Below, piece by piece: positions 58,210 to 64,000 of a stretch of 64,000 nucleotides of DNA. How positions within the stretch are numbered: the first letter of the stretch is position 1; every line of letters starts with the position of its first letter. A program made the position numbers and the translations under genes. The notes under the pieces are model-generated. The model saw only the letters and a program-made list of their open reading frames with translations. It had not been told where the DNA came from and ran no database searches. Source of the DNA: Rhodocyclales bacterium GT-UBC (GTDB lineage: Bacteria; Pseudomonadota; Gammaproteobacteria; Burkholderiales; Rhodocyclaceae); the NCBI GenBank assembly GCA_003583745.1, contig QXPY01000002.1, positions 124,001-188,000 on the forward strand, given 5' to 3'.

Positions 58210-59650
58210 GCCCGCATGTGCGGTAATGCCGTTCACTTAGGTGAGCGGCATTTTTCATTGTGGGGGTTGTGGACATTGATGCCGGCTGTTAACGTGCCGG
58301 GCGATGTTATCGAGCCAGCTCTCTATTACGACAGATGTCATGCAGACGATCGGATTCGATCGTCTGGCGGCGTATTTGCCCCGGGAGTGGATCGAGCAAG
58401 CGCTCAACGCCCATGGGGTGGCAAGCATTCGCCGTCGTCGGTTACCGGCAGAACAAGTGGTTTGGCTGGTTATCGCGCTGGCACTGTTTCGTCGCCAGTC
58501 GATGGAAGAAGTGCTCAGCACCTTGGATCTGGCTTTGCCCGACACGCGAATCGAGGCGGTGTGCAAGAGCGCGATCACGCAGGCGCGGGCGCGCCTGGGT
58601 CAAGCCCCGCTGCAATGGTTGTTCGAGCAAACGGCCAACGCCTGGTGCGGACAGGAGAAGGTGGCCAATCAGTGGAAGGGGCTTTCACTGTGGGCGGTTG
58701 ATGGCACCACCTTTCGGGTGCCGGACAGCCCCGAGAACCGCGAGCACTTTGGGGCGCAGCGCTACGCCAGTGGCAAGGTGGCGTCCTATCCTCAGGTACG
58801 CGCCGTCAGCCTGACGGCGCTGCCTACGCACCTGGTCTCGGCCATCGAGTTTGGTCCGTACGGCCAGAACGAAATGCTTTACGCCAAGGCGCTGATTGGT
58901 CGGATTGAGGACCATTCCTTGACGGTCTTCGACAAGGGTTTTGTCTCTGCAGAGATTTTGCTGGGTTTGAGCACGGCAGGTTGCGAGCGGCATTACCTGA
59001 TCCCGGCCAAGTCCAATACGCAATTCGAAGTCCTGTCAGGAACACCCGAAGATTGTCGGGTTCGTCTGCGTATCTCGCCGCAAGCGCGTGCCAAGGCGCC
59101 TGATCTACCCGACGTTTGGGAGGCGCGGGCCATTCGGGTCGAATCGGCCTCGGGTCAAAGCCGGGTGCTGCTGACCTCGTTGTTTGATCGTCGCCGCTTC
59201 CGGGCGCAGGATTTGGCGGATTGCTATCGCCGGCGCAGGGAAATTGAAACCAGTTACCGCGAACTCAAGCAATCGATGCTGGGTGAAGCGCTGACCCTGC
59301 GCTCGCGTTTGCCCGAAGGCGTTCGTCAGGAAATCTGGGGCGCCTTGATTGCCTACAATCTGGTCCGACTCGAAATGGCCAAGGCGGCCATGGCTGCCCG
59401 CGTCGCACCGACCGACTTGAGCTTTCTGCGCGCACTGCACATTATCCAGCACGAACTGATTTGGGCTGCTGGCATGAGCCCCGGGAAACTGCCGGCCCAT
59501 TTGGCTCGCCTGCGCTTGCAACTGCAAATGGCCATCGTCGAAAAACGACGGGGGCGAAAATGCCCCCGTGTCGTCAAAGCCAGACCTGCTCGCTACTCAG
59601 TTCGTCACCTCAAAGAGCCTTAACTGAACTGCATTACCGCATGTGCGGGC
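58210..59650. mobile_element. IS4-family insertion sequence, complete
   Basis: A 1441-bp element. The left terminal repeat begins GCCCGCATGTGCGGTAATGC and the inverted right end GCCCGCACATGCGGTAATGC, with similarity continuing (GTTCA-TTA). Each end has the palindrome CCGCATGTGCGG. One transposase gene fills the interior. I see no matching direct repeat in the flanks (AAAAAAA on the left, CTTTCAGATT on the right), so the original duplication is lost or the ends were rearranged. Confidence 0.88.
58304..59623 (+). CDS. IS4-family transposase
   Basis: A 439-residue DDE transposase. D133 in WAVDGTTF, D210 in VFDKGF, and the IS4 signature Y308-R311-E315-K322 (YRRRREIETSYRELK) are all present, so it appears functional. 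An N-terminal DUF4372/helical domain precedes the catalytic core. The start may be the ATG at 58304 or the one at 58340 (MQTIGFDRL). Confidence 0.95.
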   Translation: MLSSQLSITTDVMQTIGFDRLAAYLPREWIEQALNAHGVASIRRRRLPAEQVVWLVIALALFRRQSMEEVLSTLDLALPDTRIEAVCKSAITQARARLGQAPLQWLFEQTANAWCGQEKVANQWKGLSLWAVDGTTFRVPDSPENREHFGAQRYASGKVASYPQVRAVSLTALPTHLVSAIEFGPYGQNEMLYAKALIGRIEDHSLTVFDKGFVSAEILLGLSTAGCERHYLIPAKSNTQFEVLSGTPEDCRVRLRISPQARAKAPDLPDVWEARAIRVESASGQSRVLLTSLFDRRRFRAQDLADCYRRRREIETSYRELKQSMLGEALTLRSRLPEGVRQEIWGALIAYNLVRLEMAKAAMAARVAPTDLSFLRALHIIQHELIWAAGMSPGKLPAHLARLRLQLQMAIVEKRRGRKCPRVVKARPARYSVRHLKEP

Positions 59651-61464: not shown

Positions 61465-61478
61465 TTCGGGTTCCCGAA
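61465..61478. promoter_or_regulatory. Upstream activator site 1 of the dCache chemoreceptor
   Basis: TTCGG-GTTC-CCGAA, an exact TTCGG-N4-CCGAA inverted repeat, centred about 132 bases before the predicted sigma-54 start. The same sequence occurs twice before aspA. Confidence 0.75.
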
Positions 61479-61497
61479 CGCCTCCCCCCCATCCATT

Positions 61498-61511
61498 GCC
61501 GGAAATCCGGC
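61498..61511. promoter_or_regulatory. Upstream activator site 2 of the dCache chemoreceptor (degenerate)
   Basis: GCCGG-AAAT-CCGGC, the same CGG-N4-CCG core with changed outer bases, still symmetrical. Its centre is 33 bases from site 1, the same spacing as the aspA pair. Confidence 0.6.
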
Positions 61512-61576
61512 GGCGCAGATGGCGGCCGACACGACAAACACCATAAAAATCATTTATTTGACGAAAACTCAAAAGG

Positions 61577-61592
61577 TGGCACAGGATTTGCA
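61577..61592 (+). promoter_or_regulatory. Sigma-54 promoter of the dCache chemoreceptor
   Basis: TGGCAC-AGGAT-TTGCA, a perfect match to the sigma-54 consensus. Predicted start near 61603, 46 bases before the ATG. Confidence 0.88.
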
Positions 61593-61648
61593 AAGATTTA
61601 CGCCTCTTCGCGCCCGGGCCCGGGCGCCTGCCACGAAAGCACTTCGAC

Positions 61649-63529
61649 ATGTCACTCAAAAAACGCCTGCTCGTCTTCGTCAGCGTCCTCATCGCCATGA
61701 CCATCGGCCTGCTCGCCGTCCTCTCCTATCAGCGCATGCGCAGCGAAATCCTCGCTGGAGTCGAGGAGGAACTGAACGCGGCTATCGGCGGCAATCGCCG
61801 GGCCATTGCCCAATGGCTGGCGCAGCGTCGCGACGTCATCGTCGCCGCTGCCGCCCGCGCCGGCGAAGTCGAGGAGCCACGTCCGGCCTTGATGCTGAGC
61901 AAGGAAGCGGGCCGTTTCGAACAAACCTTCGCCGGCTATGCCGACAAGCGCATGCTCTATCACCTCGCCGACAAGCGACCGCCGGAAGGTTACGACCCGA
62001 CGGCCCGCCCCTGGTACAAGCTGGCCAGCGAGGCCAGGGCGACCGTGGTCACCGCCCCCTACGTCTTCGCCAGCACGAAAAAACTGGGCATCACCGTAGC
62101 CAGTCCGATCCTGCGTCAGGGGCAACAGGTCGGCGTGGCGGGCGGCGATGTCGTGCTCGAGGAGGTTACCGCGGTCGTCACCGGCATCCGCTTGCGCGGC
62201 AATGGTTTTGCCTTCCTGGCGACGCGTGATGGCAAGATCGTCGCCCACCCGAAAGCCGACGCGGTACTCAAGCCGGTTGGCGAAATCATGCCCGGCTTCG
62301 ATACGGCCCAGCTCGCTCAGGCCGGCGACAACGGTCGCCTGCGGGAAATGCAGATCGACGGGCGAACCGCCTATGTCGACCTTTCCCCAGTCCCCGGCTC
62401 GGACTGGGTATTGGGCAGCGTGATCGACAAGGACACTATCCTCTCGCCGCTCAATTCCTTGATCGCGACACTGGCCATTGCTGGCATCGTCATCGGCCTG
62501 GGCGGCGTCCTGTTCGCCAACTATGCCCTGGCCCGTCTGCTCGGCGGGGTGACCCGGTTGCGCGATGCGCTGCTCGAAATCTCCAGCGGCCAGGGCGACC
62601 TGACCCGCCGCCTGAAGGCCGACAGCGGCGACGAAATCGGCCAGACGGCAGAGGCCTTCAACCGCTTCATCGACAGCCTGCGCAAAATGTTCATCGAAGT
62701 CCGCGAAAATGCAGACACCTTGCACAGCGGCCTCTCCTCTCTCAACGACCTGACCCGTCAGGTCTCGGCCGACTCGGAACGGCAGGCGGAAGCATCCAGT
62801 TCGACGGCTGCAACGATCGAAGAAATCACCGTCAGCATCAATCACATCGCCGACAACGCCAGTTCCGGCGAAGAAATCGCCATGCAGACCGGACAGGTCT
62901 CGCGTCAATCGGCTGAAGCCGTCACCGCGCTCGCCTCCGGCATCCGCCACATTGCCAGCGAAGTCGAGCAACTGTCGTCGACCCTGGGCAGCCTCGGCCA
63001 GCGCTCGACCGAGATGAACGCCATCATCGGCGTCATTCGCGACATTGCCGACCAGACCAACCTGCTCGCCCTCAACGCCGCGATCGAAGCGGCCCGGGCC
63101 GGCGAAGCCGGGCGCGGCTTTGCCGTGGTCGCCGACGAGGTACGCAAACTGGCCGAGCGGACAGCCAAAGCCACCGTGGAAATCGGCAGCCTGATCGAAT
63201 CGACCCATGGCGAAATCCAGTCGGCACTGGCCGGCATGCACCAGACGCAGGGCTCGGTCCAGGCCGGCGTCGAATCCTCGCAAGCCGTGGCCAGCCAGAT
63301 CGGCAACATCCAGAACGATGTCGCCCGCGTCGTCGCTTCGATCCGCGACATTGCCGATGCCACCCGCGAACAGTCCGCCGCCACCACCGAAATGGCCCGC
63401 GCCGCCGAAACCGCCAACCGGATGTCGATGGATACCGACCAGGCGGTCCAGTCGGCCACCCAGACGGTTACCCAACTCAGCGGCTTGTCGCAACGCCTGA
63501 ACGAACTGGTCGCCCGCTTCCGGCTCTAA
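61649..63529 (+). CDS. Methyl-accepting chemotaxis protein with double-cache sensor
   Basis: A 626-residue receptor: helix 1 ([19 protein letters not shown]), a dCache_1 domain (about 35-270) with [14 protein letters not shown], helix 2 ([19 protein letters not shown]), HAMP, and the signalling tip [21 protein letters not shown]. The membrane-distal pocket has RPWY as in amino-acid receptors, but the Asp of the usual PYxD, which holds the amino group, is Phe here (TAPYVFAST), so the ligand may be a carboxylate. Sigma-54 promoter and paired activator sites lie upstream, shared in form with aspA downstream. No CheR-tethering tail. Confidence 0.94.
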
Positions 63530-63556
63530 TTCGAAGCGACAGCACAGCATGGCTCG

Positions 63557-63579
63557 GGCCGGCGCAAGCCGGCCTTTTT
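63557..63579 (+). terminator. Terminator after the dCache chemoreceptor
   Basis: A 7-bp stem GGCCGGC/GCCGGCC with loop GCAA and TTTTT, 27 bases after the stop. It separates the receptor transcript from aspA. Confidence 0.92.
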
Positions 63580-63601
63580 ATTTGATACCCGACCAGGAGC
63601 G

Positions 63602-63615
63602 TTCGGAAATCCGAA
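63602..63615. promoter_or_regulatory. Upstream activator site 1 of aspA
   Basis: TTCGG-AAAT-CCGAA, exact TTCGG-N4-CCGAA, extended by a G/C pair. Centre about 130 bases before the predicted aspA start. Confidence 0.78.
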
Positions 63616-63634
63616 CCCCGCCCCCCGGCGATTC

Positions 63635-63648
63635 TTCGGAATTCCGAA
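63635..63648. promoter_or_regulatory. Upstream activator site 2 of aspA
   Basis: TTCGG-AATT-CCGAA, exact, extended by a C/G pair. Centre 33 bases from site 1 and about 97 bases before the predicted start, on the same DNA face. Confidence 0.78.
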
Positions 63649-63711
63649 GCCGCCTTCGAGAGCCACCACAAAAGCCCCTTAAAAATCAATAGCTAACAGG
63701 GCACAAACAGC

Positions 63712-63727
63712 TGGCACGCGGCATGCA
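63712..63727 (+). promoter_or_regulatory. Sigma-54 promoter of aspA
   Basis: TGGCAC-GCGGC-ATGCA, with GG and GC 10 bases apart and one departure from consensus (A for T). Predicted start near 63738, 44 bases before the ATG. Confidence 0.82.
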
Positions 63728-63781
63728 AAGTAAACGGGACCGGCAGCGCGGATTTCCGACCGGCAATTAAAGGAGACAAAC

Positions 63782-64000
63782 ATGACTACCCAAGCTACCC
63801 ACCGCATCGAACACGACTTGCTCGGCGACCGCGAGATTCCGAGTTCGGCCTATTACGGCGTCCATACGTTGCGCGCTTTGGAAAACTTCGATATCACCGG
63901 CATCTCGATCGCGGTTTACCCCGACCTGATCCGCGCCCTCGCCCAGATCAAGCAAGCCGCTGCCCAAGCCAATCACGAACTCGGCCTGCTCGACGCCAAG
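63782..64000 (+). CDS. aspA: Aspartate ammonia-lyase, N-terminal part (cut by window edge)
   Basis: The first 73 codons, continuing past the right edge. HRIEHDLLGDREIPSSAYYGVHTLRALENFDITG matches the aspartase/fumarase superfamily in its AspA form (fumarase C has a different opening). The enzyme splits aspartate to fumarate and ammonia. GGAG precedes the ATG. Sigma-54 promoter with paired activator sites upstream suggests induction by acidic amino acids. Confidence 0.9.
   Translation, partial: MTTQATHRIEHDLLGDREIPSSAYYGVHTLRALENFDITGISIAVYPDLIRALAQIKQAAAQANHELGLLDAK

Follow-up and report, generated by a model that had tools for sequence, protein, structure and literature searches.

Why should a chemoreceptor gene and the aspartase gene aspA, lying next to each other in the genome of Rhodocyclales bacterium GT-UBC, be preceded by control regions of the same design? 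The two genes lie at the end of a 64,000-nucleotide stretch of contig QXPY01000002.1 (positions 124,001 to 188,000; hereafter the window), for which an initial annotation had proposed that an AauSR-like two-component system links movement towards aspartate, glutamate or their carboxylate products to aspartase. Our analysis suggests that both control regions belong to a single sigma-54 regulon of AauR type that serves acidic amino acids and would comprise at least three promoters, those of the chemoreceptor, aspA and gltI operons; judging from the sequence comparisons below, we place the probability of this reading at about 0.85.

Paired boxes precede the chemoreceptor and aspA genes

Each control region consists of two inverted repeats followed by a sigma-54-type promoter, all on the forward (+) strand like every window feature given below. 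Before the chemoreceptor gene, AauR-type box 1 (TTCGGGTTCCCGAA) occupies positions 61465..61478 (centre 61471.5) and box 2 (GCCGGAAATCCGGC, with the core CGG-N4-CCG) positions 61498..61511 (centre 61504.5), and the promoter at 61577..61592 (TGGCACAGGATTTGCA) has no mismatch. At aspA, box 1 (TTCGGAAATCCGAA; kept in genomes G320 and G147) is found at 63602..63615 (centre 63608.5), box 2 (TTCGGAATTCCGAA) at 63635..63648 (centre 63641.5) and the promoter, with one mismatch (TGGCACGCGGCATGCA), at 63712..63727. The box centres are 33 bp apart in both regions and, with the C of the second GC set as -12, fall at approximately -132/-99 and -130/-97. All four boxes have CGG-N4-CCG in common, and three of them are exact copies of TTCGG-N4-CCGAA. 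The initial annotation had described these promoters and repeats correctly, and its naming of TTCGG-N4-CCGAA as the site of AauR agrees with the excerpts consulted of two papers, according to which AauR and this motif are described in Pseudomonas putida and AauR matters in Pseudomonas aeruginosa and Pseudomonas syringae (PMC7962211, PMC7386598).

A rare composite reveals a third promoter

In the window, 7 boxes with at most one mismatch were found against 3.5 expected, and at least 7 were present in 7 of 100 shuffles. The 4.68-Mb genome contains 10 exact boxes in comparison with 7 for the reversed control, and 12 pairs of CGG-N4-CCG at 33 bp in comparison with 7, with 3 of the 12 placed against genes. 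The initial annotation had named background frequency of the repeats as a ground for doubt, and this is close to the truth for single boxes, though not for the composite of double box and promoter. We defined the latter as TCGGN4CCG-N20..24-CGGN4CCG-N50..80-TGGNAN7TGC and found it exactly three times in the genome, before the chemoreceptor, aspA and the gltI operon, against no match for the control. A sample of 368 other genomes from the class gave 3 matches, none of them with two AT-rich box cores (as judged by sequence only), compared with 2 matches of the reversed control in the full set of 369; the background of the composite is approximately 0.01-0.03 per genome. Two other patterns were rejected. 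A TCGG pair with one mismatch hit 34 of 121 family genomes and its control 13; this was too noisy, and the problem disappeared once the promoter was made part of the pattern. A full-length double box with at most three mismatches gave one match (aspA) against one in the control; it catches aspA alone, since the boxes at the chemoreceptor and gltI keep little more of the motif than CGG-N4-CCG and are degenerate around it.

The third composite lies outside the window, at C17:48007-48049, before an operon with the order gltI, type II asparaginase, gltJ, gltK, gltL, a methyl-accepting chemotaxis protein (MCP), a second binding protein, a MarC-like gene, and the sensor kinase and sigma-54 response regulator genes HK_C17 and RR_C17 (the gltJKL and MarC names were assigned by eye). 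Its promoter, TGGCACGTCCCCTGCG, is 81 bp from box 2, about one helical turn further than at the chemoreceptor (72) and aspA (70). The aspA gene (aspartate ammonia-lyase, 474 residues) starts at 63783 and runs past the window end (63783..64000); downstream of it on C1, beyond the window, follow an SDF-family symporter, a TauE/SafE-family gene, the DctB/AauS-like kinase HK_C1 and the AauR-like regulator RR_C1. The initial annotation had expected one AauSR-like system and had advised a search for aauRS homologues and amino-acid ATP-binding cassette (ABC) transporter genes. Such a system is present at the end of a Glu/Asp ABC operon with a double box, namely HK_C17/RR_C17 with gltIJKL, and HK_C1/RR_C1 is a second one; the genome thus has two pairs, not one.

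The composite is conserved and linked to AauR-type regulators

Among 297 family genomes, the composite gave 53 matches in 47 genomes in comparison with 3 for the control. Target genes follow 45 of the 53: gltI (21), aspA (17), symporter (5, of which those in G290 and G235 are only 29% identical), asparaginase (1) and MCP (1). For the other 8 (G140, G005, G283, G150, G255, G012, G093 and G275), no such gene was found in the available sequence. These 8 and the 3 class matches all lie within stop-free frames of 223-824 codons; two of the three composites of our own genome do so as well (365 and 367 codons), so that a stop-free frame is no proof of chance, and what distinguishes the 8 is the missing target gene.

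The composite tends to occur together with the regulators. Within the set of 121 genomes, in which AauR-type regulators were called at E <= 1e-160, the composite occurs in 16 of the 24 genomes with such a regulator and in 3 of the 97 without (P value 1.6e-11, Fisher test). By similarity, an AauR-type regulator is encoded in each of the 39 genomes that have a composite before a target gene (16 + 23, with that of G281 split), and in one of the other 8 composite genomes. In a relaxed scan of 20 regulator loci, a pair was found directly before gltI, aspA or the symporter in 14. We also obtained 69 stretches from the named records of a genome collection and could assign 32 of them to gltI, ansB, aspA or symporter promoters, including ones from Aromatoleum, Azoarcus, Pseudomonas, Azospirillum, Ensifer, Propionivibrio, Cupriavidus and Corticimicrobacter. 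Many of the remaining 37 are actinobacterial or other records without a recognised gene or promoter, and a few of them, for example L116, L119, L129, L130, L151 and L176, may be real.

Box spacing and promoter distance follow a common architecture

We compiled 79 promoter rows from 98 loci hand-picked as positives, allowing spacings of 30-35 bp and dropping duplicates and rows with no recognised gene, no CGG in box 1 or no CCG in box 2; our own aspA row is absent because the window stops within the gene. A spacing of 32 bp was the most frequent (51 rows), ahead of 33 (13), 31 (12), 35 (2) and 30 bp (1). The N4 core consists largely of A or T, with 287 of 316 bases in box 1 and 265 of 316 in box 2, and since it was unscored in the selection, this counts as evidence, whereas base counts at the scored positions do not. 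After the removal of 5 rows judged to be mispaired for the phasing test, the distance from the centre of box 2 to the promoter was 67-73 bp in 31 of the 74 rows, 79-84 in 35, 91-95 in 7 and 58 in 1. For periods between 10 and 11.5 bp, these distances are non-uniform (P value 5e-5, the floor of 20,000 simulations).

The region between the boxes and the promoter was scored for sites resembling that of integration host factor (IHF), using WATCARNNNNTTR, which we take to be its consensus. Perfect sites were found in 15 of the 79 rows in comparison with 0.2 in shuffles, and scores of at least 8/9 in 43 in comparison with 6.1. In the chemoreceptor region, the best IHF-like site (8/9, one mismatch; 61548..61560, coordinates by eye) falls within a block that the alignment shows to be conserved with G320. 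The aspA region has one at 63684..63696 (AATCAATAGCTAA, one mismatch, read by eye), and the G320 stretch aligned to it fits the consensus in full. In the mechanism that we propose, a phosphorylated response regulator of the AauR clade would bind both boxes along a single face of the helix, bending of the DNA, probably by IHF, would carry the bound regulator to the RpoN-polymerase, and transcription would then start at the -24/-12 promoter.

Weighing the evidence at the chemoreceptor promoter

A number of results weigh against a common regulon. Single boxes are near background and prove little, and the statistics on phasing and IHF-like sites are inflated, as the rows were hand-picked as positives and share ancestry. 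A strict composite is missing from 8 of the 24 regulator-positive genomes: five of these have a relaxed pair (G030, G053, G098, G105 and G109), G079 has a weak pair without a recognised gene, G074 has no pair despite its regulator, and the contig of G089 stops short of the operon start. We looked for the receptor protein in 121 genomes of the family and 60 of the genus, with G147 and G235 reached via the box pattern, and boxes were present at 4 of 7 homologues of at least 55% identity (our own and those in G320, G147 and G235); no box pair was found at those in G105 (62%), G011 (58%) and G074 (55%), nor boxes at the promoters of 11 relatives at 36-42% identity, the weak pairs of G115 and G057 being located elsewhere in the flanks. 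As boxes are missing at these genes, we consider the inclusion of the chemoreceptor in the regulon a local feature and not a family-wide rule. Two Azospirillum loci (L131 and L143) have an MCP gene near aspA, with a 36% match over approximately 180 residues only and no pair before the MCP.

Sigma-54 promoters of flagellar and chemotaxis genes are common in proteobacteria, and the second box of the chemoreceptor, which matches only 6 of 10 positions, and the three close homologues without boxes could accordingly mean that the chemoreceptor promoter belongs to the flagellar programme, served by activators of FleQ or FlrC type, and that the boxes are incidental. We consider this most improbable given the other homologues and the low background of the composite. 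In G320, where the receptor is 90% identical and likewise stands before aspA, the position of box 1 is kept as TTCGGTTTCCCGAA and that of box 2 as GCCGGAAACCCGGC, again 33 bp apart, and the distance from box 2 to the promoter is nearly equal to ours (73 and 72, respectively). The pair of G147 (receptor homologue 57%) is weaker, its boxes matching 6/10 and 7/10 positions, and in G235 a 62% homologue is the third gene of an operon of asparaginase, solute-binding protein and MCP behind a double box.

The receptor itself (61649..63529, 626 residues, with dCache_1 sensor, HAMP and MCPsignal domains) looks like an amino-acid receptor of the PctA/B/C kind and not like a carboxylate receptor. Its sensor matches the structures of PctA, PctB and PctC at E ~1e-29 and contains the dCache_1AA residues Y115, R120, W122, Y123, Y138 and D167, all six spaced identically to PctA Y121, R126, W128, Y129, Y144 and D173 (motif positions in PctA numbering from an excerpt of PMC10104139). 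Of the movement towards amino acids or carboxylates that had been suggested for this gene, these residues favour the first and speak against the second. Homology of the sensor and all six motif positions are thus shared with PctA, PctB and PctC; in contrast to theirs, the gene lies beside aspA and behind an AauR-type promoter.

Two related systems may share the boxes

In a tree of 66 rows (62 regulators of DctD/AauR type and 4 outgroup activators), the RR_C17 group (18 rows, our own protein appearing twice), the RR_C1 group (19 rows) and the Pseudomonas/Cupriavidus regulators (5 rows) form one clade with support 99/97, in which RR_C1 is sister to the Pseudomonas/Cupriavidus regulators at 90/74 only. 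A kinase tree of 39 rows has the same three groups in one clade (100/99) without resolving their mutual order. The recognition helix reads [KR]TTL[HF]DK in 39 of the 41 readable rows of the regulator clade, the exceptions being G074 (TTLRDK) and Ensifer (KATLHDK) and the row of G085 being cut, and in none of the 20 DctD-type rows outside it, which read RKTLYDK, RKTLHDK, RRTLNEK etc. By both tree and helix, RR_C1 and RR_C17 do not group with regulators of DctD type.

RR_C17 and HK_C17 group with Pseudomonas AauR and AauS and are separate from the remaining two DctBD-type systems of P. putida, by elimination DctD and MifR; three such systems are reported for P. aeruginosa PAO1 in the excerpt of PMC7962211. 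The P. putida member of the AauR clade stands at the end of a gltIJKL-HK-RR locus with an exact double box (a 31-bp pair), which fits the description of AauR excerpted from the same paper. Like it, RR_C17/HK_C17 is encoded with the aat (gltIJKL) transporter. RR_C1/HK_C1 is not, being linked to aspA, the symporter and TauE, and we therefore call it AauSR-like and not AauSR. In the sensor, HK_C1 is 41% identical to the aat-linked kinase of P. putida and HK_C17 32%. As RR_C17 has the gene context while HK_C1 is nearer in sequence, neither system is simply "the" AauSR; the pair adjoining aspA is the closer candidate regulator.

With diverged sensors and similar recognition helices, the paralogous pairs HK_C1/RR_C1 and HK_C17/RR_C17 would most likely both act on the boxes. 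We tentatively propose, with slightly less than even confidence, that they are duplicated AauSR systems with different periplasmic sensors and one DNA specificity, such that either signal would activate a single sigma-54 regulon that includes an amino-acid chemoreceptor of the cell itself. The systems may instead be insulated, with RR_C1 driving the chemoreceptor and aspA operon only, RR_C17 the gltI operon only, and the likeness of the boxes coming from shared ancestry; we regard this as possible but rather doubtful. It would agree with each two-component system closing its own boxed operon, with our own gltI boxes (GTCGG...CCGAT) being slightly unlike the aspA boxes, and with G147, where the only match at E <= 1e-155 is of RR_C1 type and boxes are present at the chemoreceptor and aspA. 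However, even at E <= 1e-115 only one match was obtained in G094; the tree puts it with RR_C17, and yet aspA-symporter-TauE is preceded by a double box in this genome. G212, G190 and G232 also have a double box at aspA, and each gave one match at E <= 1e-155, of RR_C17 type (68-69% identity in comparison with 65% to RR_C1, BLAST). That all five of these genomes have the double box at aspA suggests that either protein can use it, and the recognition helices of our own two regulators agree at 11 of the last 16 residues (by eye).

Rearrangements of these loci were seen in several genomes. In G062, of the same genus, two AauSR-like systems are adjacent and convergent (C19:480500-500000, L178), perhaps a remnant of a duplication. 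A gene with its best match to aspA (72%) lies between gltL and HK_C17 in G053, G031 and G106 (L182, L183 and L184), with further genes in between in G053. Another genome of the genus, G281, has boxes before aspA and gltI and, as its only such regulator, an RR_C17 orthologue split by a frame change into two frames (residues 1-277 and 277-439; C1 ~2828303-2829133, L331), which is either a decayed gene or a sequencing error.

Linked genes point to acidic amino acids

The predicted products would form one pathway: an amino-acid chemoreceptor, a periplasmic asparaginase, a Glu/Asp ABC importer, the SDF symporter and aspartase, which would convert aspartate to fumarate and ammonia. The substrate of the symporter is probably Glu/Asp. 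The solved structures listed as related to it are those of Glu/Asp and neutral amino-acid carriers. Its last helix has the LDMGRT of solved aspartate transporters, a motif that marks carriers of amino acids and not those of C4-dicarboxylates.

The kinases and regulators are of DctBD type, and against the NCBIfam models of DctA and GltP the symporter scores below the cut-offs of both, slightly higher on DctA. The boxes could on these grounds be DctD sites in a regulon serving C4-dicarboxylates, a reading that we find very unlikely. The genes linked to the boxes are aspartase, asparaginase and the Glu/Asp importer, and LDMGRT speaks for an aspartate carrier, although this comparison is one-sided, with no DctA among the listed structures. 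The genome also has a third, DctBD-like two-component system (G000:C13:6000-24000), which falls outside the AauR and AauS clades and lies near a different, imperfect pair, TGCGA-N4-CCGCA / TCCGG-N4-CCGCA, accompanied by a sigma-54-type promoter. The DctBD system for C4-dicarboxylates has in common with the systems studied here the domain architecture of kinase and regulator and the sigma-54 control of a transporter; it differs in falling outside the AauR clade, in its helix (KTLYDK or KTLHDK in place of TTLHDK) and in its linked genes.

Comparison with the Pseudomonas regulon

According to the excerpts consulted, reported or putative targets of Pseudomonas AauR are aatJ, gltP, ppsA, ansB and dsbC (PMC7962211) and hrpRS (PMC7386598), two box-like motifs lie 233-278 bp upstream of PAO1 aatJ (PMC7962211), and P. 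aeruginosa AauS, DctB and MifS are all assigned to the carboxylic-acid type of dCache sensors (PMC8694187). The acidic amino-acid regulon proposed here resembles that of Pseudomonas AauSR in its TTCGG-N4-CCGAA boxes upstream of a -24/-12 promoter, its aat operon, its asparaginase/glutaminase and its two-component system of DctBD type. It differs in the inclusion of aspA, the symporter operon and the chemoreceptor, in the usual spacing of 32-33 bp and in having two paralogous systems. In the CC-licensed PMC literature, we found no paper naming both AauR and aspA and, in the excerpts consulted, no chemoreceptor placed under AauR; among the matches listed, none by its title had AauR as subject outside Pseudomonas, and none of those for AauR with five taxon names named AauR. 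GluSR of Burkholderia glumae was considered as a local equivalent and rejected, as it represses cell-division genes and has no link to the box in the excerpt consulted (PMC8281045). The apparent additions to the known regulon are thus the two paralogous systems, aspartase and the chemoreceptor.

If the proposed sharing is true, feeding on aspartate or glutamate would tune up movement towards them. A regulon established in Pseudomonas would be extended to the family studied here, probably Rhodocyclaceae, and to some alphaproteobacteria (Azospirillum, Ensifer), its signature being clear across the genome, and aspartase and a chemoreceptor would join its likely targets. The genomes with one, the other or both regulators provide a natural test of how two-component systems that arose by duplication use a regulon jointly or split it between them.

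Neighbouring features

Between the chemoreceptor gene and the aspA control region, a terminator-like hairpin with a T-rich tail (63556..63575) may separate the two into transcription units of their own; hairpins of this kind are not above background in the region (2 in comparison with 3.7 in shuffles). An exporter of the TauE/SafE family is frequent in aspA-symporter operons (L011 5639-6397; L252, L254, L256-L258). Further upstream in the window, before ssb, an open reading frame of 439 residues (58304-59623, + strand) resembles, by eye, an IS4-type transposase.

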